From contig DAIDJM010000003.1 of assembly GCA_027451405.1 (NCBI GenBank), positions 1-64,000 on the forward strand: 64,000 bases of DNA, in the 5' to 3' direction. Below, in pieces: positions 33,049 through 43,774 of the stretch (positions within the stretch are counted from its first letter, which is position 1; every line of letters starts with the position of its first letter). The notes under the pieces are model-generated. The model did not search any database. It saw nothing but the letters and a program-made list of their open reading frames with translations, and was not told where the DNA came from. This DNA is from Acetobacteraceae bacterium. GTDB taxonomy: Bacteria; Pseudomonadota; Alphaproteobacteria; Acetobacterales; Acetobacteraceae. Made by a program: the position numbers and the translations under genes.

Positions 33049-33399
33049 TCAGGCGAGAAGCGCGAAGCCGAGGATGGCGTTCACCGCCTGGTTCATCGCG
33101 TCCACGATCGCATTGACGACGACCTGCGCTTCGTAGGCGCTGAGCGATTCCATGGTTTCGACGAGCGTGGATATGGCGTCCTCTTCGGAGGCGATGAGGT
33201 CCTTCGCGGTCGCGTCGGTGAAGATTCCGGCCTGCCGCTTGGCGACGATGGCGGTGATCGCTGCGGCGATGTCGCCGAGATGGGGCAGCACGAAATTGTC
33301 GAAATCCCCGGCGAGGTTGCGTCCGCCGGCCACGAGGGCGGCGAGCCCAGACCGGCCGCCGGCTTCGAGGGCTTGCAGGATCGTATCGGCGGTGTTCAT
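33049..33399 (-). CDS. Small Ala-rich helical protein, unknown function
   Basis: 116 residues, nearly all predicted helix (TILQALEAGGRSGLAALVAGGRNL...AKDLIASEEDAISTLVETMESLSAYEAQVVVNAIVDAMNQAVNAILGFALL). No signal peptide or motif that I recognise. The start at 33399 lies 13 bases after the stop of the lipoprotein gene, so the pair is an operon. The low-complexity ends make a phage-like or regulatory role impossible to judge. Confidence 0.6.
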   Translation of the reverse strand: MNTADTILQALEAGGRSGLAALVAGGRNLAGDFDNFVLPHLGDIAAAITAIVAKRQAGIFTDATAKDLIASEEDAISTLVETMESLSAYEAQVVVNAIVDAMNQAVNAILGFALLA

Positions 33400-33412
33400 G
33401 CCCCGGCTCCGT

Positions 33413-34087
33413 TCATCCGTGGGTGGCCGCTTGCTCGCGGCCTTCGCGATAGATGATCGCCTCGAGTTCGGTCGCGAGCGCCTGGGTGGCGGGTCCGTGC
33501 GCCTGGCCGGGCAGTGGTTCGAAGAGCGCGGCGCAGCGGATCGCGACACCCGGATCGAAAGCCACGGGTTTCGACGCGCCGGCCTGCAGCGCGGCGGCGA
33601 ACTGGCCGTCCGGGATCGGCAACTGGCATTGCTGGATCAGGTCGAAGCCGATGCCCGAGGCTGGCGGCGATCCGTCGGCCACGCGTTTCTGCATGCGCGC
33701 GAAGATGTCGGGCAGGGTTTCGCAGCGGTTCAGCCGGGGCGCCGTATCGTTCGTCGCGAGGATGGGGAAGCTCGTGCGCAACTGCCCGGAAATGCGCCCG
33801 GCGAGCGCGTCGCAGCTCGTCAGTCCGGGATCGATGCTGAGCTCGATCGCCGCCATGGCCTCGATCTCGCCGCGCCATGCGGCGAGCTTCGCTTGCACCG
33901 GGGGGTTGCGCGGGTCGGCGGCCGGCGTGCCCGCGGCGGCGCGCATCTGTCCCTCCCAGGCGGTGAGGTCGGCCAGCATGTCGGCGGCGCGGCTCTGCAG
34001 ATCGGCGCTGTAGGGGCTGACCCATTGCGCGTGCTGGCAGGCGGCGAGGGTGGCGAGCAGGAGCGGCGCGAGGCGGGCGAGGGTCAT
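33413..34087 (-). CDS. Putative lipoprotein of unknown function
   Basis: 224 residues. The N-terminus MTLARLAPLLLATLAACQHA ends in a lipobox (LAAC, Cys17). The mature part has four further Cys (SCDAL, NRCETL, QQCQLP, IRCAALF), perhaps two disulfides, and long helices (LTAWEGQMRAA; VQAKLAAWRGEIEAMAAIEL). No family is recognised. The ATG at 34087 gives the signal sequence directly. It is upstream gene of a two-gene unit with 33049-33399. Confidence 0.65.
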   Translation of the reverse strand: MTLARLAPLLLATLAACQHAQWVSPYSADLQSRAADMLADLTAWEGQMRAAAGTPAADPRNPPVQAKLAAWRGEIEAMAAIELSIDPGLTSCDALAGRISGQLRTSFPILATNDTAPRLNRCETLPDIFARMQKRVADGSPPASGIGFDLIQQCQLPIPDGQFAAALQAGASKPVAFDPGVAIRCAALFEPLPGQAHGPATQALATELEAIIYREGREQAATHG

Positions 34088-34148
34088 GCGGTTTCTATTT
34101 TCGCGCGAATGTCTCGGTTGGGCAATCTCCGAAAAATTTCGAAGTGCC

Positions 34149-34215
34149 GGCGTCTGGGGCCGTCGGCCCCAGCCTGTCCCGGGCAGGGCTCGGGCCGCCG
34201 GCGGCATGCCTCAAC
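34149..34215. repeat. Repeat R2-like hairpin upstream of the lipoprotein operon
   Basis: ctggggccgtcggccccag is a perfect stem, followed by tcccgggcagggctcgggcc. It is a diverged member of the R2 group and lies between the 5' end of the lipoprotein gene and the 3' end of the SLGxxC operon. Confidence 0.5.
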
Positions 34216-34230
34216 CCCAACGTCCCCGCT

Positions 34231-35751
34231 TCAGGATTGGCCGGTGAGGCGAGCGGCGGCGGCGAGCGCGGCTGTCCAGGCGGCTGGGCTCGCGCCTTCG
34301 CCCGTGTCGTCGAGCCCGGCCTGCAGCAGGCGAGGGCCGAGGCGCCGCGCCTCGCCGGGCGGTAGAGATCCATCCTGAACGAGCCAGAGCAGGGTCGCGT
34401 CGCCATGGAGGCGCAGGGTCGCGAGGATGGCCTCGGCCTCCTCGCGCAGCAGCACCTCACGGCGGCGCAGCAGGAAGATGGTTTCGCCTTGCGCGATCGT
34501 CTCAAGCAGGCGGCGGGCCAGGAACGGCAGGGTCCGGGCGGCCTGGCGGAGGACGGCGGCGGCCATGTCTGGGCCGAGCGGGACGCCGGTCGGCGCCGTG
34601 ACATCGTAATGCGGTTCGCTGAACCAGGCGCGGTCGTCGCCGTCGCGGCTGGTGAAGTCGAGCGTGTCGGGGCGGCCGAGCAGGCGGAAGCCGTCGCAGA
34701 GCCCGTGCACCAGGCCGAACGTCGTGGTGCCGGCGAGATGCAGAAGCCCGAGCCGCGCGACGCCGGCAGCATTTTGCAGGTGGGCGAAGTCGCAGGTGTG
34801 GCCGAGGGATTCGAAACGCGACAGGAAGGCGCGGGGATTGTCGGCGGGCAGGCGGAGCGTGGCCGGGGGCGCGGGCGGCGCGGCGAGAATGCGCAGCGCG
34901 CTCAGCATGAAGGCGAAATTCCGTCCATCGTGGTAGCGGAGGAAGTCGCGCTCCGGTGCGGCATCGAAATTGTCGAAGGTGATTTCCCAGTCCTGCCGGT
35001 TGGGATCGGGGGGCGGAAGCGCGAAGGCCAGCGGCGTTCGGCGGTCGATGGCGACGAGCCCGAGCTGGCGCCCATTGGCGCCGACCAGGATGCGCTGGCG
35101 GGGCAATCTCTGCGCGTCGATGGCCGGATTGAGGTCGAGCAGAAGCAGATGCGGGCCGGGCTCGGGGGGGGCGGGGATGCGCAGCGTCGCGCGGCGGCCG
35201 AGCGCCCAGGCGTAGTTGCGTTCGCCCGCGCCCCAGCCTTCGGCCAGGCATCCCCTGTCGGCGCCGGCGGCGCCGAAGGCGAAGGCGGCGAGCAGCCGGT
35301 TCGGCCCGGCCGGGGCGGGCCGGGCGGGCACGCGCAGAAGGGTCGCCGCGAACAGCCGGATGGCGAGCGGGCGCGGGTCGGCGCCGCCGCCATGATCGGC
35401 GGGGCGTGCGGCGTCCGGATGGTGGAGCGTGAGCGCGAGGCTGGGGCCGTGGGCGAGGCGGGCGGGGACGTCGAACTGGATGGTGGCGTTGCCGGTGATG
35501 TCGGCGGCGAAGAGCGTCGTGCGGCCGGCCGCGATGCGCAGGCGCTGCCGGGGGATGGCGGGCGGCAGCAGGCAGGGACCCAGTCCCATTTCGACGACGA
35601 GGTCGCCCTCGCCGTCGGGGACCGGGAGGGTGAGGCGCGAGAGGGCGCCGAGGCTCCAGGACCAGCCGCGCTCGGTGCTCCAGCCCGGGGCGAGATGGGG
35701 CGTGCCGTTCTGCCCGGCGCCGAAGCCGAGGGGGCCGGCGAGGCGGATCAT
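34231..35751 (-). CDS. SLGxxC-motif multidomain protein A
   Basis: 506 residues. Two N-terminal beta-sandwich-like modules each open with a W-rich line (WSTERGWSWSLGALSRLTLPVP; WGAGERNYAWALGRRATLRIPAP) and end with HPDAARP or DNFDAAPERDFLRYHDGRNF. The C-terminal domain holds RFESLGHTCDFAHLQ, which resembles the Cys motif of putative papain-like peptidases (DUF1796 type), followed by AWFSEPHYDV with a candidate His. It overlaps the upstream paralogue by four bases (ATGA). No signal peptide is seen. Two of its paralogues and an ACP are in the same operon. Function unknown. Confidence 0.65.
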   Translation of the reverse strand: MIRLAGPLGFGAGQNGTPHLAPGWSTERGWSWSLGALSRLTLPVPDGEGDLVVEMGLGPCLLPPAIPRQRLRIAAGRTTLFAADITGNATIQFDVPARLAHGPSLALTLHHPDAARPADHGGGADPRPLAIRLFAATLLRVPARPAPAGPNRLLAAFAFGAAGADRGCLAEGWGAGERNYAWALGRRATLRIPAPPEPGPHLLLLDLNPAIDAQRLPRQRILVGANGRQLGLVAIDRRTPLAFALPPPDPNRQDWEITFDNFDAAPERDFLRYHDGRNFAFMLSALRILAAPPAPPATLRLPADNPRAFLSRFESLGHTCDFAHLQNAAGVARLGLLHLAGTTTFGLVHGLCDGFRLLGRPDTLDFTSRDGDDRAWFSEPHYDVTAPTGVPLGPDMAAAVLRQAARTLPFLARRLLETIAQGETIFLLRRREVLLREEAEAILATLRLHGDATLLWLVQDGSLPPGEARRLGPRLLQAGLDDTGEGASPAAWTAALAAAARLTGQS

Positions 35752-37253
35752 GCCTTCGCCGCCGCTTCGAGGGTGCGCAGCCAGCATTCCGGTGTCGAAC
35801 CGGTGCGGGCCGCGTCGTGGTCGAGCCCGCCGGCGAGCAGGTGCGGTCCGAGCCGGATGACCTCGCCGGGCGGGATCGTGCTGTCCTGCGTGAGCCACAG
35901 CAGGGTGGCATCGCCGTAAAGACGCAGCGCGGCCTCGATGGCATCGACCTCGGGACGGCGGAGATTGGGGGTGGGGCGGAGCAGGTAGATGCGGTGCGCG
36001 GCGCCGAGATCCTCGAAGAAGCGCTGCACGAGGAACGGGAGGACGCGCGCCAGCTGGCGCGCGACGCGCGGCGCGTTCTCGATCGTGCGCGGGAAGTTGG
36101 ACTGGCCTTCCAGCATGTAGGCGGTTTCCCGGAAGCGCCAGTTGGGCGAGTCGGCGGCGCCGAACGGATAGAGGTGGGCGGGATTGCCGAGCCCGAAGAA
36201 GCCCGCGGCCAGGCCGCGCACCAGGCCGAAAGGCGGGATCAGGGTCATGTGCAGCAGCGTCAGCCGCTCGGCGCCGAGGCTGCGTTGCAGGCGGCCGAAA
36301 TCGCAGGTGCAGCCGAGCGATTCGAAGCGCTGGACCAGTTCTGCGGGCGGAATGTCGCCGCTGCTGGGTGGCCGGACCGGAGGGGACGCATCGCCGAGGC
36401 GGATCAGCCGGAGCGTGATCAGGCGGAAGACGAAATTGCGGCCGTCTGCGTAATGTCCGAACTCGCGCGGGCGCGCGCCGTCGAGATGGTCGAAGGCGAG
36501 CCGCCAGGTGCGGCGGCCGGGCGCTGGCGGCGGCAGATCGAAGCCGAGCACCGCGTGCAGGCGCACCGGGAGTGTCGCGAGCAGCCGGTCATCGAGGCCG
36601 ATCGTGAGGCGCTGTCCTTGCGGCAGCGTCTCGTGCTTCCACGGGTCGAGCTCGATCAGGAGGCGGAACGGCCCGGGCTCGTCCGGCACCGGAACCGTCA
36701 GCGTGCTGCGATGGCCGAGCGCCCAGCTATGCTCATCCTCCGGCGTGCCCCAGCCTTCCTCGAGGCAAGCCGGACCCGCATCGGCGCCGCCGAAACGATG
36801 CTCGGCGACCAGGCGGTTGGGCCCGGTGGCGGCGGGTGCTGCCGGCGCGCGCAGGAAGCGCGCGTGCCAGAACCGGAAGGCGAGCGGGCGGGCGTCGGGA
36901 TCGCCGAAATCGCTCGGGCGCATGGCATCGGGATGCTCGAGGGCGAGCGAGAGCGTGGGGCCGGCGGCGAGTTCGGGCGGGATCGCGAGGCGGAGGGTGG
37001 TTTCGCCGTAAAGACGATGGTCGGCGAGCAGGTGGCCGGCTGCCCTGACACGCAGGCGCTGCGAGGGGACGTGCGGCGGACGGATGCAGGGAGCGAGGCG
37101 AAGTTCGAGATGCAGGTCGCCGGGGCCGGGGAGCGTGGCGAGCGTGAGCGTGCTGGCGTGCCCGAGGGACCAGGAAAAATCGCGCTCGGTGGACCAGGCG
37201 GGACCGAGGCTGGCGCCGGCGCCGAACGGGATCGGATCGCCGACCCGGATCAT
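35748..37253 (-). CDS. SLGxxC-motif multidomain protein B
   Basis: 501 residues, same architecture as protein A: two beta modules (WSTERDFSWSLGHASTLTLA; WGTPEDEHSWALGHRSTLTVPVP, ending in GARPREFGHYADGRNFVF) and a C-terminal domain with RFESLGCTCDFGRLQ. Where proteins A and C have a His after the W-F motif, B reads NWRFRETAYM with no His, so it may be catalytically altered. It starts 58 bases downstream of the ACP stop and is coupled to protein A. Confidence 0.65.
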   Translation of the reverse strand: MIRVGDPIPFGAGASLGPAWSTERDFSWSLGHASTLTLATLPGPGDLHLELRLAPCIRPPHVPSQRLRVRAAGHLLADHRLYGETTLRLAIPPELAAGPTLSLALEHPDAMRPSDFGDPDARPLAFRFWHARFLRAPAAPAATGPNRLVAEHRFGGADAGPACLEEGWGTPEDEHSWALGHRSTLTVPVPDEPGPFRLLIELDPWKHETLPQGQRLTIGLDDRLLATLPVRLHAVLGFDLPPPAPGRRTWRLAFDHLDGARPREFGHYADGRNFVFRLITLRLIRLGDASPPVRPPSSGDIPPAELVQRFESLGCTCDFGRLQRSLGAERLTLLHMTLIPPFGLVRGLAAGFFGLGNPAHLYPFGAADSPNWRFRETAYMLEGQSNFPRTIENAPRVARQLARVLPFLVQRFFEDLGAAHRIYLLRPTPNLRRPEVDAIEAALRLYGDATLLWLTQDSTIPPGEVIRLGPHLLAGGLDHDAARTGSTPECWLRTLEAAAKA

Positions 37254-37311
37254 GCCGGGTTCACGCCCGCAGCCGCGCCGCGAGCCCGCCTGCCGGAGCC
37301 GCGCCCGCGCT

Positions 37312-37557
37312 TCACGTCGCGAGGCGGCCGGCGACGATCCGGACGAGGTCGCCGACCGAGCGCAGCGAATCGACTTCGCGGGAGCGCAGGGTGATGCCGA
37401 ATTCCTCTTCGGTGCGCAGGATGATCTCGACCATCTTCACCGAATCCCAGCCGGGGATGTCGCGGGCCGTGGTCGCTTCGGTCACCGGCGCGTCCGGCGC
37501 GCCGAGCGTTTCGCGGACGATCGCGGCGATGCGGTCTTCGATCCGTTCCGCCGTCAT
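37312..37557 (-). CDS. Acyl carrier protein within the SLGxxC operon
   Basis: 81 residues, normal ACP length. The phosphopantetheine-attachment Ser is in IPGWDSVKMVEIILRTEEEFGI (DSxxMxE in place of the common DSLxxVE). An N-terminal helix (IEDRIAAIVRETLGAP) and a final VGDLVRIVAGRLA helix complete the four-helix bundle. Its ATG overlaps the stop of protein C. No ketosynthase or other fatty-acid gene is nearby, so it is probably a dedicated carrier for the flanking proteins rather than for bulk lipid synthesis. Confidence 0.9.
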   Translation of the reverse strand: MTAERIEDRIAAIVRETLGAPDAPVTEATTARDIPGWDSVKMVEIILRTEEEFGITLRSREVDSLRSVGDLVRIVAGRLAT

Positions 37558-38726
37558 GCGCCGAAACCTTCCTCGCGCCAGAAACGGTAGGCGTTCGCGA
37601 GCAGGCTGATCCAGGCGGTGAATTTCGCGTTGCCCACGTCCCAGGCGGGGGCGAGTTTGTCGATGCTGCCCATGTAGAGGTCAGGGCGCAGTTTTTCGAC
37701 CGTGCCGGGCGGGCGCGTGGAGTCGCGGCGGACGAAGAGCAGCGCGTTCGGGCCGTAGCTGCGGAGCGTGGCGAGCAGCGGCAGGACCAGGGCTTCCGAC
37801 AGCCGGTCCGGGTGCTGGAAGACGAAGATCTTTTCGCCGGATTCAAGAGTCTCGAGGAATTTCCTCAAGTAGAGCTGATGCTTGCGAACCTGCTCCTGCT
37901 TCACCTCGTCCGCGGTCGTGTTGCCGACATAACGGTCGGTGTGGGATTGGAAGCCCCAGGCGAGGTTGCGGATCATGTATTCGCGCCGCTCCTCCGAGTC
38001 GATAAACACCCGTAACATGTCCGGATCGTCGGCCTGGGGGAAGCCGAAATCGAGGCCGCGCAGCAGATTGTGCGGCGCGATGCCGGCGAACCGCAGAAGG
38101 CCCATCGGCTCGACGCCGAGCTTGCGCTGCACCACGCCGAACTCGCAATTATGGCCGAGACTCTCGAAGCGCAGCGCCAGATCCGGAATGGCGAGGCCGG
38201 TCAGGCGCTGCACGAGCTCGGTGCTGCGCGGGCCGAGATCCTCGGGCAGCAGCGGAAGCGGGGGCAGCGAGCGCGCGACGGTCGGCCGTTCCGGAGGCAC
38301 GCGGATGACGAGGATTTCATGCAGCGCGATGCCGAGATGGCGCTCGTCGGTGCTGATGCGTTCCTTCTGCGGGCAGATCGCGTCGGGATGGTGGAAGCGA
38401 ATGTCGAGCGCGTCGGGGTTGCCGAACCGCGCGGCATCAAGCCGGTAGCCCAGCCCCGCTTCGGCCTCGATACGTTCCTCGCCGAGCGCGATGCCGTTGA
38501 CTTCGACGCCGAGCCGTTGTCCGTCGAACAGCGGGCGCCACGTGTAGGGGGTGAGGAGAATTTGCAGCAGGAGGTCGCCCTGACCCGGCGCGAGCGGGAT
38601 GTGCAGCCGGGATTCGGGGGCGATGGACCAGGTGTGGTCGGTCTCGAGCGGGCCCCAGCCCTCGCGCAGGCAGGGACCACCGTTGCGGGACTGTTTGAAG
38701 ACGAACTCGGCCGCGGTCTCGAACAC
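37554..38726 (-). CDS. SLGxxC-motif multidomain protein C
   Basis: About 390 residues, first gene of the four-gene operon. It has one N-terminal beta module (CLREGWGPLETDHTWSIAPESRLHIPLAPG...FHHPDAICP) rather than two. The C-terminal domain carries RFESLGHNCEFGVVQRKLGVEPMGLLRFAG (Cys194) and WGFQSHT (His262), then VFQHPDRLSEALVLPLLATLRSYG. The start is GTG 38726, with no clear ribosome site. It lies head-to-head, 9 bases from the histone-deacetylase-like gene. It overlaps the ACP gene by four bases. Confidence 0.65.
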   Translation of the reverse strand: MFETAAEFVFKQSRNGGPCLREGWGPLETDHTWSIAPESRLHIPLAPGQGDLLLQILLTPYTWRPLFDGQRLGVEVNGIALGEERIEAEAGLGYRLDAARFGNPDALDIRFHHPDAICPQKERISTDERHLGIALHEILVIRVPPERPTVARSLPPLPLLPEDLGPRSTELVQRLTGLAIPDLALRFESLGHNCEFGVVQRKLGVEPMGLLRFAGIAPHNLLRGLDFGFPQADDPDMLRVFIDSEERREYMIRNLAWGFQSHTDRYVGNTTADEVKQEQVRKHQLYLRKFLETLESGEKIFVFQHPDRLSEALVLPLLATLRSYGPNALLFVRRDSTRPPGTVEKLRPDLYMGSIDKLAPAWDVGNAKFTAWISLLANAYRFWREEGFGA

Positions 38727-38735
38727 GGCGCGGTG

Positions 38736-39869
38736 ATGCCATGGGGGGCGGGTTTCCGCCAGGGCGCGGCGGCGCCGGTGTTCATCGGCAGCGAGATCTA
38801 CCGCCATAGCCGCTATGGGCGCGGGCACCCTTTGGCGGTGCCGCGGGTGTCGACCATGATGGATCTGTGCCGGGCGCTCGGCTGGCTGCCCGACGCGCTC
38901 TATCGCGAGGCGCCGGCGGCGACCGCCGAGGCGCTGGCGCGCTTTCACGACGCCGATTACCTGGCGGCGCTGCTGCGCGCCGAGGCAAGGCAATCCGTTC
39001 CGGAGGAGGACCAGAAGCGCTACGGGCTCGGGGTTGCGGGCAATCCGGTCTATCCGGAGATGTTCCGGCGGCCGGCGACCGGCGCCGGGGGCGTGCTCCT
39101 GGCGTCCGCCCTGATCCGGGCGGGCGGCGCGGCCTTCGTGCCGGGCGGCGGCACCCATCATGGAAGGCGGGCGCGGGCCTCGGGATTCTGTTTCCTGAAC
39201 GATCCGGTGCTCGGCATCCTGGCATGGCTCGATGCCGGTTTGTCGCGGATCGTGTATCTCGACATCGACGCGCATCACGGGGACGGCGTGCAGGACGCGT
39301 TCCATGGCGATGCGCGGGTGCTGACGCTTTCGGTGCATGAGGCCGGGCGCTGGCCGCGCACGGGAGAGGCGGCGGACCGCGCCGGCGGGTCGGCGCGGAA
39401 CTTTCCTGTGCCGAAAGGATTTCACGATGCGGAGATGCGGCATCTCCTGGAGGCGGCGATCCTGCCGCTGATCGAGGCGCATCGGCCGGAGGCGGTCTTC
39501 CTGCAATGCGGCGCCGATGCGCTCGAGGAAGATCCGCTGTCGCATCTCGCCCTTTCCAACAACGCGCATGTCGCGGTGGTGCGGGCGGTGCGGCCGCTCG
39601 CGCCGCGGCTGCTCGTGACCGGGGGCGGCGGCTATAATCCCTGGAGCGTCGCGCGCTGCTGGACCCGCGTCTGGGCGGAACTCGCGGGGTTCGCGGTGCC
39701 GGAGCGTCTGCCGCCGGCCGCCGAGGCGGTGTTGCGGGGGCTTTCCTTCGCGCACCGTCTGGGGCGCGACCCGCCGGATTTCTGGTTTACGACGTTGCGC
39801 GATAAGCCGCGTTCGGGCGATGTGCGGCCCGCCATCGTGGCCGTGGCGAAGCAGGCTTTGGAGGCGTGA
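38736..39869 (+). CDS. Histone deacetylase / acetoin-utilisation (AcuC)-like amidohydrolase
   Basis: About 377 residues of the arginase-deacetylase superfamily. GSEIYRHSRYGRGHPLAVPR at the start, the charge-relay GGGTHHGRRARASGFCFLND, and zinc ligands in VYLDIDAHHGDGVQ and later QCGADALEEDPLSHL, then LVTGGGGYNPWSVAR. All expected catalytic residues are present. It removes acyl groups from an amine: Lys, polyamine or a small metabolite. The ATG at 38736 or GTG at 38733 are the likely starts. It is divergent from the SLGxxC-ACP operon, so an acyl-related link is tempting but unproven. Confidence 0.85.
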   Translation: MPWGAGFRQGAAAPVFIGSEIYRHSRYGRGHPLAVPRVSTMMDLCRALGWLPDALYREAPAATAEALARFHDADYLAALLRAEARQSVPEEDQKRYGLGVAGNPVYPEMFRRPATGAGGVLLASALIRAGGAAFVPGGGTHHGRRARASGFCFLNDPVLGILAWLDAGLSRIVYLDIDAHHGDGVQDAFHGDARVLTLSVHEAGRWPRTGEAADRAGGSARNFPVPKGFHDAEMRHLLEAAILPLIEAHRPEAVFLQCGADALEEDPLSHLALSNNAHVAVVRAVRPLAPRLLVTGGGGYNPWSVARCWTRVWAELAGFAVPERLPPAAEAVLRGLSFAHRLGRDPPDFWFTTLRDKPRSGDVRPAIVAVAKQALEA

Positions 39870-40384: not shown

Positions 40385-41734
40385 ATGAAGCCGCAGGCAG
40401 TGGGCAAGACGCCGCGACGCATTTCGGCGGCCGAGGCGGCGGCCCTCGTGCAAAGCGGACACTGGGTGGATTACGGCGTCTCGCTCGGGCAACCGGACGC
40501 GTTCGATGCGGCGCTGGCGGCGCGGATCGGCGAATTGCAGCAGGTCAAGGTGCGGTCGTGCCTTTCGTTGCGGCCGCGCGCCGTGGTCGAGGCCGATCCG
40601 GAAGGGCGGCATGTCTTCTGGCTGAGCTGGCATTTCTCGGGCTGGGACCGGCGGCAGCACGATGCCGGCCTGTGTCACTATATTCCGGTCAATCTCGGCG
40701 AGGTGCCGGATTACTATCGCCGGTTCAACGCCCCGGTGGACGTTGCGGTATTGAAATGCCGGCCGGCGGACGAGAACGGCTTCTTCAATTTCGGCGGCAC
40801 GCATCTCTGGCACCGGGCGATCGTCGAATGTGCGCGGGTCGTGGTCGTGGAAGAGGATCCGGCCTTGCCGGCGGCCGAGGGAGAGGCGGCCGGCGTGCAT
40901 CGGAGCGAGGTGGATTACGTGATCGCGGGCGCCGGACTCGATTTGCCGGAATTGAAAAACCCGCCGGCCAACAGCGTGGAACATACGATCGGGCGGCGCA
41001 TCGCGGCCGAGATCGAGAACGGCGCCTGCCTGCAGATCGGCATCGGCGAGCTGCCGAATGCGGTTTGCGCGGAACTGCTCGCGAGCGGTGTCGGCGAGCT
41101 CGGCGTGCATACCGAGATGCTGACCGACGGCATCGCCGATCTCTACCGGGCGGGGCGCGTGACGGGGGCGCACAAGACCGTGCAGCCGGGCAAGATCGTG
41201 TATAGTTTCGCGCTGGGATCGCGGAAGCTTTACGAGACGATCGACGGGAATCCGGATTTCTGCGCCATGGCGGTGGAGCGGACCAATATGCCGCACATCA
41301 TCATGCGGAATTCGCGTGTCGTCTCCATCAACAATACGACGCAGGTCGATCTGCAGGGACAGGCGGCTTCCGAGTCGGACGGTTGCCGGCATATCAGCGG
41401 CACCGGCGGACAGTTGCAGTTCGTGCGCGGGGCCTATGCCTCGCACGGCGGCAAGGCGTTCATCTGCATGGCCTCGACCTATGAGCGCCCGGGCATCCGG
41501 CGCAGCCGGATCGTGGCCGAGCTCACGCCGGGGAACATCGTGACGACGCCGAGATCCGACATGATGTATGTGGTGACCGAGTACGGCATGGTGAATCTGA
41601 AGGGCAAATCCGTGCCCGAGCGCGCCCAGGCGCTCATTTCGATCGCGCATCCGGATTTTCGGGAGGCGCTCGAGCGGGAGGCTCGGGAACGGCGTTTGAT
41701 CCCCCGGCATTGGAGCGGTGCGAGGTTGGGTTGA
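40385..41734 (+). CDS. Acetyl-CoA hydrolase / 4-hydroxybutyrate CoA-transferase family protein
   Basis: 449 residues of the Cat1/4-HB CoA-transferase family. ADENGFFNFGG, CLQIGIGELPNAVCAELL and the active-site Glu block GVHTEMLTDGIADLYRAG. The C-terminal SGTGGQLQFVRGAYASHGGKAFI and YGMVNLKGKSVPERAQALI are also typical. It moves CoA between short-chain acids. It is 63 bases after DUF192. The last few codons run into a small R2-like stem (41735-41765). Confidence 0.88.
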   Translation: MKPQAVGKTPRRISAAEAAALVQSGHWVDYGVSLGQPDAFDAALAARIGELQQVKVRSCLSLRPRAVVEADPEGRHVFWLSWHFSGWDRRQHDAGLCHYIPVNLGEVPDYYRRFNAPVDVAVLKCRPADENGFFNFGGTHLWHRAIVECARVVVVEEDPALPAAEGEAAGVHRSEVDYVIAGAGLDLPELKNPPANSVEHTIGRRIAAEIENGACLQIGIGELPNAVCAELLASGVGELGVHTEMLTDGIADLYRAGRVTGAHKTVQPGKIVYSFALGSRKLYETIDGNPDFCAMAVERTNMPHIIMRNSRVVSINNTTQVDLQGQAASESDGCRHISGTGGQLQFVRGAYASHGGKAFICMASTYERPGIRRSRIVAELTPGNIVTTPRSDMMYVVTEYGMVNLKGKSVPERAQALISIAHPDFREALEREARERRLIPRHWSGARLG

Positions 41735-41774
41735 GGCGGCGCCTCTGCCCGCCGGAGGCCGATGGGCGCCGGGG

Positions 41775-43187
41775 TCAGGGGTTGGAGGGCGCGGCGGGTG
41801 GAAGACCCGACAGCGCCACGCCGTAGACCCCGAGCGCCCAGGGAATGCTGGGGATCGGTTTGCCGCTCGGGTCCAGAGTCTGCTCGCCGATCACTGATGC
41901 GAACATGAAATTGTCGCGTCCGACGAAATCGGTGCGGTAGGCACGCAGCACATGCCGGGCGTCGATCCGGTGGTTCGCCAGATTATGCCGCACCCCGTTG
42001 CCCTGGCGATGCTCGAAGATGGTGTAGGCGTGATCGACGCGCATGGGCACGCCGCTCATCCGCTCGAGAAGTTTTTGGCCCTCCTTGAGCGCTGCGCCGA
42101 TGCGGCTACGCCGGTCCGGCCCCGGCGGGAGCGGCGCAACCGCGATGATCGTGCGGATATCGTCGTCTCGTGAGTGCATCCGGCAGGCATCGTCGCCGGG
42201 TTCGAGCTTCAGCCAGGCGGGCAGCACGAGCGTGGCGCCGGAGCGCGGTTCACTCCAGATCGCGAAGTCGTTGTGCATGGATTTGCTGTCCAGTCTCACG
42301 CCGGTGATGCCGGTCGCCAGCTCTTGCAGATAGTCGGGCTGCGACGCGGTCGAGACCAGTTTCGCGAGCGGCAGGATGCGGCGGCGGTAGAGCGTGAAGG
42401 CGCCGCAGCGAACGCCGCTGTCGCGGGTCTGCGGCGCCGCGGTCGCGAACGCGCTGGTGGCGCCCTGGGATGTGTCCGGCATGTCGGGCGGCGCGTGGAG
42501 CAGGTCGGGCAGGTAGTGCGCGCGCACGGCCCAGCCGACGCCGACCGCGCCACGCTCCAACCCGCCCGATCCGATGCCGATGACGGTGCCGCTCGGATCG
42601 ATGATCGGCGCGCCGGAATTGCCGGGCAGCAGATTGCCGTCGAGGCGGAGGATGTCGGTGGAGAGCGCGGGAAAGCCGGCGCGGGTGATGTCCTGGCGTT
42701 CGGCGTCGGGCAGCACGTCGGCGAGATGCGGCGCTTCTGCGTTGCCGAAGGTGAGTTCGAGCGGATGCGTGTCGCGCGTCGGCTGGCCGAGCGCGTAGCC
42801 GAAGACGTCGACTTCGGTGCCGGGCGGGGGCGGGCTGGGGGCGACGGCGAGGGAGGGCGTCGGCGGTGCGCCATCGACCGCGAGGAGCACGAGATCGGCG
42901 GGGACGAGCACATGCGCGACCCGGGCGGGCCGCTCGTCGATGCCCTGGTAATCGACCGCGATCGTTTGGCAGCCGACGACGACGTGGAGGTCGGTGACGA
43001 TTTGGCCGGCGCTGGGCCAGGCGAAGCCTGATCCGGCGCGGCTTGTTTCGTCACCGGAGCAGTGGGACGCGACGACGCGGACGATGGCGGGCGCGATTTT
43101 GGCGAGGGTCGCGGTCGAGGGGCCGTCCGCCGCGCGGGCCGGCAGGGTGGCGAGAAGGGTTGCCGCGAGCAGCGGACTCAGCCGCAT
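41775..43187 (-). CDS. Periplasmic trypsin-like serine protease
   Basis: 470 residues. The signal peptide is MRLSPLLAATLLATLPARAADG. The S1-type triad is visible as His68 (VTDLHVVVGC), Asp98 (VPADLVLLAV) and Ser191 (GNLLPGNSGAPIID). Cys pairs flank the His. A C-terminal region of about 230 residues (CGAFTLYRRRILPLAKLV...) is not a PDZ domain that I recognise. The start overlaps the end of the upstream membrane-protein gene by ten bases, so they are co-translated. Confidence 0.82.
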   Translation of the reverse strand: MRLSPLLAATLLATLPARAADGPSTATLAKIAPAIVRVVASHCSGDETSRAGSGFAWPSAGQIVTDLHVVVGCQTIAVDYQGIDERPARVAHVLVPADLVLLAVDGAPPTPSLAVAPSPPPPGTEVDVFGYALGQPTRDTHPLELTFGNAEAPHLADVLPDAERQDITRAGFPALSTDILRLDGNLLPGNSGAPIIDPSGTVIGIGSGGLERGAVGVGWAVRAHYLPDLLHAPPDMPDTSQGATSAFATAAPQTRDSGVRCGAFTLYRRRILPLAKLVSTASQPDYLQELATGITGVRLDSKSMHNDFAIWSEPRSGATLVLPAWLKLEPGDDACRMHSRDDDIRTIIAVAPLPPGPDRRSRIGAALKEGQKLLERMSGVPMRVDHAYTIFEHRQGNGVRHNLANHRIDARHVLRAYRTDFVGRDNFMFASVIGEQTLDPSGKPIPSIPWALGVYGVALSGLPPAAPSNP

Positions 43188-43774
43188 AGCGGCTTCAGGC
43201 CGGCGGCCAAGCTGGCCGGGGGATCCGCGGCGGCGGCGGCGGCGGCCGCGAGCGCCGCGTAGGCGCCGCCCGATCCGCTGAGGATGCGCAGTTGCACGGC
43301 GGCAGGCATGTGCGCGAGGCGCGCGCACAACCCGGCCTGATCGGCGAAGAGCGCGTTCGAGCTGGCATCGGCGGCCGGTTTGGCGGCGATCGTCGCGTTG
43401 TCGGGTTTCAGGCCCAGGCGCTGGAACGCCACGAAGGCGCGCGCCTGTTCCTGCGAATAGCCGGCTTGTTGCCAGGCGCGAACATCGCTCGCGATCGAGG
43501 GGGCGAGCCATGCGCCGGAGCGGATCGAGAGCCCGAGCAGGACGCCGGCGGCGCAGAACGCGCCGAACGCGCCGATGCGCCAGGAGCGGTCGGGCGCCCC
43601 GGCCGGTGCGGCGAGACCGAGAAAGCCGGCGAGCAGCGCCGAGAGGGTGGCGACGACCCCGCCCACGATTTGGGCGACCGAGAGGCCGAGCAGGAGGCCG
43701 ACCAGCAGGCCGAGGCCGGCGCCGGCGGCGATTTCGGCGGCCAACGGGGGGCGAGGGGCTTGCGATGCCGACAC
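43178..43774 (-). CDS. Membrane protein of unknown function
   Basis: 198 residues with three predicted spans (GLGLLVGLLLGLSVAQIVGGVVATLSALLAGFLGLA; IGAFGAFCAAGVLLGLSI), then a soluble tail (SDVRAWQQAGYSQEQARAFVAFQRLGL) ending in an Ala-rich stretch. It overlaps the protease start, and lies 82 bases after the RND gene, so it may be a late member of that transcription unit. No family recognised. Confidence 0.6.
   Translation of the reverse strand: MSASQAPRPPLAAEIAAGAGLGLLVGLLLGLSVAQIVGGVVATLSALLAGFLGLAAPAGAPDRSWRIGAFGAFCAAGVLLGLSIRSGAWLAPSIASDVRAWQQAGYSQEQARAFVAFQRLGLKPDNATIAAKPAADASSNALFADQAGLCARLAHMPAAVQLRILSGSGGAYAALAAAAAAAADPPASLAAGLKPLCG

Follow-up and report, generated by a model that had tools for sequence, protein, structure and literature searches.

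D-alanylation of surface polymers by the Dlt proteins follows a plan in which an AMP ligase (DltA) and a dedicated carrier (DltC) act with a membrane acyltransferase (DltB). A different kind of loading enzyme, FkbH, makes glyceryl-ACP in the tetronate and methoxymalonyl-ACP pathways. Here we describe an operon, located in the 64-kb stretch of Acetobacteraceae DNA that was analyzed (hereafter, the window), which encodes an acyl carrier protein (ACP) and three proteins, A, B and C, that share an SLGxxC domain. By analogy, the system appears to resemble the D-alanylation plan, with a soluble DUF1796/DUF1919-like domain as the putative transferase and with FkbH as a second kind of loader. The two plans differ in that no MBOAT-type membrane segment was found in A, B or C (no 19-residue stretch with a mean hydropathy above 1.4), and in that FkbH can stand as the alternative loader in SLGxxC loci. 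No ligase to go with the carrier, as in the Dlt plan, was found in the window; ligase and ACP genes occur together in 12 of 58 other regions. As for FkbH itself, the likeness to glyceryl-ACP loading is that it lies beside an ACP gene in 12 of these 58 regions and in the second cluster of the window genome; the difference is that its partner here is an SLGxxC protein.

The best parallel for the proposed SLGxxC mechanism is WcbI (PF18588). Its crystallographic report (PMC4104973) places the acetyl moiety of bound acetyl-CoA between residues Cys14 and His201; it also states that no activity was demonstrable and that the authors proposed an unknown partner. The likeness lies in a Cys and a His that hold a pantetheine thioester, in the polysaccharide context, and in the fusion of WcbI to SLGxxC in two proteins. 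The differences are that the ligand in the crystal was CoA and not ACP, and that WcbI shows no profile match to SLGxxC (hhalign probability of 0.4 against eight WcbI stretches). DUF1919 proteins occur in capsule and EPS loci, as described in two reports (PMC5901230, PMC3609815). In the open-licence full-text literature we found nothing on DUF1796 and little on DUF1919, and the open-licence literature yielded no description of an SLGxxC-ACP-loader system.

Organization of the operon

The four genes lie on the minus strand in the order C, ACP, B, A, and all of them show the elevated G+C at third codon positions that is typical of coding regions. Coordinates and gene order agree with the original prediction of an operon of three SLGxxC proteins around an ACP. 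Gene C (37554..38726, minus strand, GTG start) encodes one beta-sandwich module followed by an SLGxxC domain (37581..38180; profile match E 1.8e-71). The ACP gene (37312..37557, minus strand; PF00550 E 4.1e-9) overlaps C by 4 bases (ATGA, 37554-37557) and carries the anticipated intact phosphopantetheine site, predicted to be Ser39 of a GWDS motif by translation (codon 37441..37443); the DS motif is present in 31/31 ACP matches of the test set described below. Gene B (35748..37253, minus strand) is in turn overlapped by 4 bases (ATGA, 35748-35751) by gene A (34231..35751, minus strand, ATG start). The ACP had been described as embedded by four-base overlaps, which is true toward C but not toward B, from which it is separated by 58 bases; translational coupling of the ACP is therefore expected on its upstream side only.

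A and B each encode two beta modules upstream of an SLGxxC domain, and the predicted two/two/one distribution of modules in A, B and C was recovered by HMM. The modules of A span residues 9-141 (35329..35727) and 158-289 (34885..35280), and those of B residues 12-135 (36849..37220) and 153-285 (36399..36797); the SLGxxC domains, placed by profile match and alignment, occupy 34246..34824 in A and 35757..36338 in B, all on the minus strand. Simple hydropathy analysis revealed neither a signal peptide nor a membrane stretch in A, B or C, and the three proteins are thus expected to be cytoplasmic.

A histone-deacetylase-like gene (38754..39869, plus strand, start codon provisional; PF00850 E 2e-67) diverges from C and was considered a neighbour and not counted in the system. 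Very little space separates C from this gene (38754-39869), and a similar layout was seen by eye in the L013 locus. Downstream of A, two short minus-strand genes (33049-34207) have no Pfam match, and one of them has a lipoprotein-like start.

The SLGxxC domain is a conserved family

Searches of A, B, C or the domain against Pfam, NCBIfam and PHROGs gave no usable family (a single chance-level match in NCBIfam). Among 249 Acetobacteraceae genomes, at least 74, with the window genome counted, encode the domain, which makes it a conserved family and more than a chance resemblance. A class-wide search of 289 genomes returned the window genome only; few candidates were scored per genome, so this search was poorly sensitive. 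One query against viral contigs gave no SLGxxC relative, and a PDB sequence search with the SLGxxC profile gave nothing credible.

The predicted SLGxxC(D/E)F motif reads SLGHTCDF in A, SLGCTCDF in B and SLGHNCEF in C. Conservation was assessed in 69 independent domains, taken from regions outside the discovery set and longer than 150 residues, where Cys and Gln are invariant (69/69 each) and Glu (68/69), Trp (67/69) and His (64/69) nearly so. All five residues are kept in C, with the Cys at position 194 (codon 38145..38147, minus strand) and the His, in an SHT motif, at position 262 (codon 37941..37943, minus strand), as read from the translation. In A and B, Glu is replaced by Asp, and the conserved His by Pro in A and by Gln in B. 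A following His had been attributed to A and C and denied to B; this is correct for C and B, but A has Pro at the family-conserved position and its other His residues lie elsewhere. Both A and B carry LLH where LLR stands otherwise, which gives them an extra His, a hypothetical substitute for the missing one.

In a tree of 100 SLGxxC domains, A and B group with L137_879, from another genome, with support of 99/94. In this protein Glu is replaced by Ala and His by Asn, and the three thus form a supported clade without the His, indicating that a His-less lineage exists. C groups with the proteins of L012 and L013 (99/88), and then weakly with L137_8061 (92/52). A separate variation was seen at L048 (17482-19764), where a single protein carries three tandem SLGxxC domains, the last of which has Ser instead of Cys; an ACP and a ligase follow it.

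Relationship to DUF1796 and DUF1919

The kinship with DUF1796 (PF08795) put forward in the original prediction was upheld by profile-profile comparison. Alignment of the SLGxxC domain to six DUF1796 proteins by hhalign covered 194 columns at full length (P 2.9e-7, probability 88.7) and matched up the Cys, the His and the late C-terminal Trp of the two families. When other settings or a larger profile were used, the alignments had P 5e-7 (147 columns) and P 7.9e-6 (138 columns). Five column-shuffled controls gave P values of 0.43 or worse. By profile comparison the kinship of the SLGxxC domain with DUF1796 is thus a distant one. None of 31 members scored over the PF08795 gathering cut-off, 30 of them, C included, had no match, and the single match (E 0.005) reached 17.1 bits against a cut-off of 23.

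The closest solved chain to the AF2 model of the C domain (pLDDT 86.4) is 2g6t (Foldseek E 2.4e-3, probability 1.00; VIA Z 8.7 over 167 residues, rmsd 3.9), and the next chain reaches Z 5.5. 2g6t is kin of DUF1919 (PF08942), as shown by a phmmer E of 5e-20 from a DUF1919 protein, and an S.NC motif with a later His can be recognized by eye in DUF1919. There is no sequence-profile match between the two families, although this was a weak test, with only two DUF1919 sequences (hhalign probability 0.1). Papain-like chains are absent among the structure matches listed for the domain, of which 2g6t is the best, and the papain-like site that had been suggested finds no support here.

Both DUF families are rare, with DUF1796 in 1/200 of a phylum sample and DUF1919 in 2/249 of the genomes sampled. 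DUF1796 genes sit in glycan gene clusters: on plasmids of Priestia and Terribacillus (Bacillaceae) they are found among glycosyltransferase, epimerase and pseudaminate genes. A difference from SLGxxC is that no ACP, FkbH or ligase could be detected at seven DUF1796/DUF1919 loci.

SLGxxC genes are linked to carrier and loader genes

A discovery set of 23 loci (L050, with no SLGxxC domain, was left out) served to build search HMMs for ACP, FkbH and ligase; an ACP is present in 15 of these loci, FkbH in 5 and a ligase in 9. The 14 discovery genomes contain 63 PF00550 matches in approximately 59 Mb, and for 14 of the 24 SLGxxC sites or clusters in these genomes one of them is encoded no more than approximately 3 kb away or as part of the SLGxxC protein itself. 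The test set was drawn from additional Acetobacteraceae genomes and comprised 60 regions, chosen blind to their neighbours and in score order among the matches listed, with one region (G717:C193) passed over. It was reduced to 58 because L110 and L125 are the contigs already sampled as L012 and L013. Test regions that share a genome are not mutually independent.

An ACP gene lies within 3 kb of an SLGxxC domain in 31 of the 58 test regions (333,550 bases), as compared to 0.65 regions expected by chance from the genome-wide ACP density, and there were no ACP matches at 3-8 kb (355,570 bases in the same regions). Near and far counts were 13 versus 1 for FkbH, regions and matches alike, and 18 versus 3 regions (20 versus 4 matches) for the AMP-forming ligase. 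Within 5 kb, ACP is accompanied by FkbH in 12 regions and by a ligase in 12, and stands alone in 7; the 27 ACP-free regions, some of them on cut contigs, have a ligase alone (6), FkbH and ligase (1) or none of the three (20). Partner samples checked against Pfam were over the cut-off for 8/8 ligases, 7/7 ACPs and 3/4 FkbH proteins, with the FkbH of L051 below it. A strict typed motif is present in 9/14 FkbH and 11/24 ligase matches of the test set, and the remainder are mostly long, strong matches; the FkbH match of L128 is a 44-residue fragment.

Across all loci there are 20 same-strand pairs of neighbouring SLGxxC and ACP genes, 10 of which, that of the window included, overlap by exactly 4 bases. 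In addition, three genomes encode single-protein adenylation-PCP-SLGxxC fusions. That the ACP belongs to the SLGxxC system, as its place in the operon had suggested, is supported by the 31 linked regions and the three fusions. A regular separation of the ACP from these genes was encountered for the two nearest orthologues of C (L012 and L013, with no ACP in cis) but not for the family overall. At L061, L142, L150 and L162, SLGxxC-ACP-ligase loci also have a nearby gene for a family-5 solute-binding protein, as identified by Pfam.

No loader, FkbH or ligase, was found within the 64-kb window. The only FkbH of the window genome is encoded on contig C2 (G000 C2, approximately 41440-43330), in a second SLGxxC/ACP cluster (L062 8346-12586) where the genes for a TPR-SLGxxC protein, FkbH and an ACP follow each other in this order. 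Eight of the 10 best-scoring partners of the window ACP are FkbH-linked, the best with 52% identity. A tree of 46 ACPs did not settle its placement, so that descent from FkbH-type ACPs is only a hint and was not retained. L012 and L013 both keep a DUF192-like gene near the orthologue of C, and L013 also has a deacetylase-like gene (by eye). C-like and A/B-like proteins are both encoded at L137, with ligase, ACP and C-like gene in one run and an A/B-like gene approximately 6 kb away.

Beta-sandwich modules and glycan context

The AF2 model of C, obtained from seven aligned sequences (pLDDT 82.7, pTM 0.84), displays a jelly-roll domain at residues 1-144 (38295..38726, minus strand). Structure comparison indicated a resemblance to the beta-sandwiches of carbohydrate-binding modules (CBMs) and glycosidases, with VIA Z values of approximately 10 (8.9-10.2), and to BcsB. 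Because Eph receptor domains give matches too, the comparison speaks to the fold and not to the ligand. In the fold sense, therefore, the modeled C domain is in agreement with the original proposal of carbohydrate-binding modules, and the N-terminal modules of A, B and C are predicted to be carbohydrate-binding-like. The beta module is carried by 45 of 96 SLGxxC proteins (a count in which the duplicate contigs L110 and L125 are included) and, by HMM, by eight proteins without SLGxxC; a GT61 protein of the window genome (L008) has it at its end.

Among 61 SLGxxC proteins longer than 260 residues, the most frequent of the TPR models matched 17, and WcbI (2), sulfotransferase (2) and GT61 (1) domains were also found. 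Both WcbI fusions have the architecture WcbI-TPR-SLGxxC. Of the 58 test regions, 6 contain WcbI, and an ACP is present in 5 of these 6: WcbI is part of a fusion in two and a separate gene in four, three of the latter with an ACP. WcbI genes, some with a beta module, were seen beside ACP and SLGxxC genes at L136 (3333-5762), L140 (585-3242) and L158 (2820-3984). The 86 flanking genes are mixed, with no dominant glycan family (WcbI 3, GlcNAc 2-epimerase 3), and glycosyltransferases are adjacent or fused at some SLGxxC loci only; a GDP-mannose dehydratase also occurs at some. Taken together, the CBM-like modules, the WcbI fusions and the glycan neighbours favour a glycan as the acceptor.

Discussion

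We lean toward a reading in which SLGxxC proteins are soluble enzymes of acyltransferase type, which would be supplied with an acyl group by a dedicated ACP and deliver it, most likely to a nascent glycan. A loader, either FkbH or an AMP-forming ligase, would charge the phosphopantetheine of the ACP; the SLGxxC domain, through its conserved Cys and His, would take over the thioester-bound group and transfer it to an acceptor, which attached or neighbouring modules would keep in place. In the window, C would be the probable catalyst, A and B, as His-less paralogues, would probably serve in acceptor binding or in the regulation of C, and the second cluster's FkbH would probably load the ACP in trans. 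This reading draws on the ACP/FkbH/ligase linkage, the 4-base overlaps, both kinds of fusion, the invariant or nearly invariant residues, the DUF1796 genes among glycan genes, the beta module of the GT61 protein and the ligase-ACP-C-like run of L137. Against it stand the facts that activity is known for no relative, that 27/58 regions, L012 and L013, and the DUF1796/DUF1919 loci are ACP-free, that A and B lack the His, that the window has no loader, and that glycosyltransferases accompany only some loci.

The His-less clade of A, B and L137_879, the 5/69 domains without His, and the ACP in 5 of the 6 WcbI-containing regions could also be explained if SLGxxC were a scaffold that binds the ACP or its pantetheine without chemistry and offers the charged carrier to a different transferase, WcbI-like or linked to a glycosyltransferase. 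We consider this unlikely, since near-invariant Cys, Glu and Gln, and a His in 64/69 domains, are more than a scaffold needs, and WcbI is absent from most regions. Editing or unloading of the ACP by a thioesterase or hydrolase would also account for the conserved Cys and His; moreover, release domains usually sit directly after a carrier domain, which is where SLGxxC is found in the adenylation-PCP-SLGxxC fusions. Such a role seems distinctly improbable to us, given that the CBM-like modules and WcbI fusions point to an acceptor and that three copies per operon would seem superfluous for one editing enzyme.

Could C, B and A work without the ACP, which would then be a leftover or serve another process? 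The ACP-free orthologues of C in L012 and L013 and the lack of a loader in cis would fit, but the intact Ser site, the 4-base coupling to C and the family-wide linkage make this very unlikely. As to a papain-like cysteine peptidase, the name that Pfam gives to DUF1796 as a putative function, the remote homology to that family is its basis; the fold of 2g6t, the best of the structure matches listed, at Z 8.7 versus 5.5 for the next chain, and a gene context of loaders and carriers led us to set it aside as extremely improbable. Returning to the acyltransferase reading, we tentatively carry it one step further, to a possible new class of carrier-protein-dependent Cys-His glycan acyltransferases with interchangeable loaders, which would supply glyceryl via FkbH and acyl or aminoacyl groups via AMP ligases, and with WcbI-type capsule proteins perhaps following the same logic.

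SLGxxC is thus a family that is common in the Acetobacteraceae, has no Pfam model, and is statistically tied to dedicated carriers and to two kinds of loader. If the acyltransferase reading is true, a soluble class of transferase would join the ligase-carrier-transferase plan known from D-alanylation, and proteins of the DUF1796/DUF1919 type would gain a testable function. It would also predict that bacterial glycans bear glyceryl or acyl substituents not yet described.
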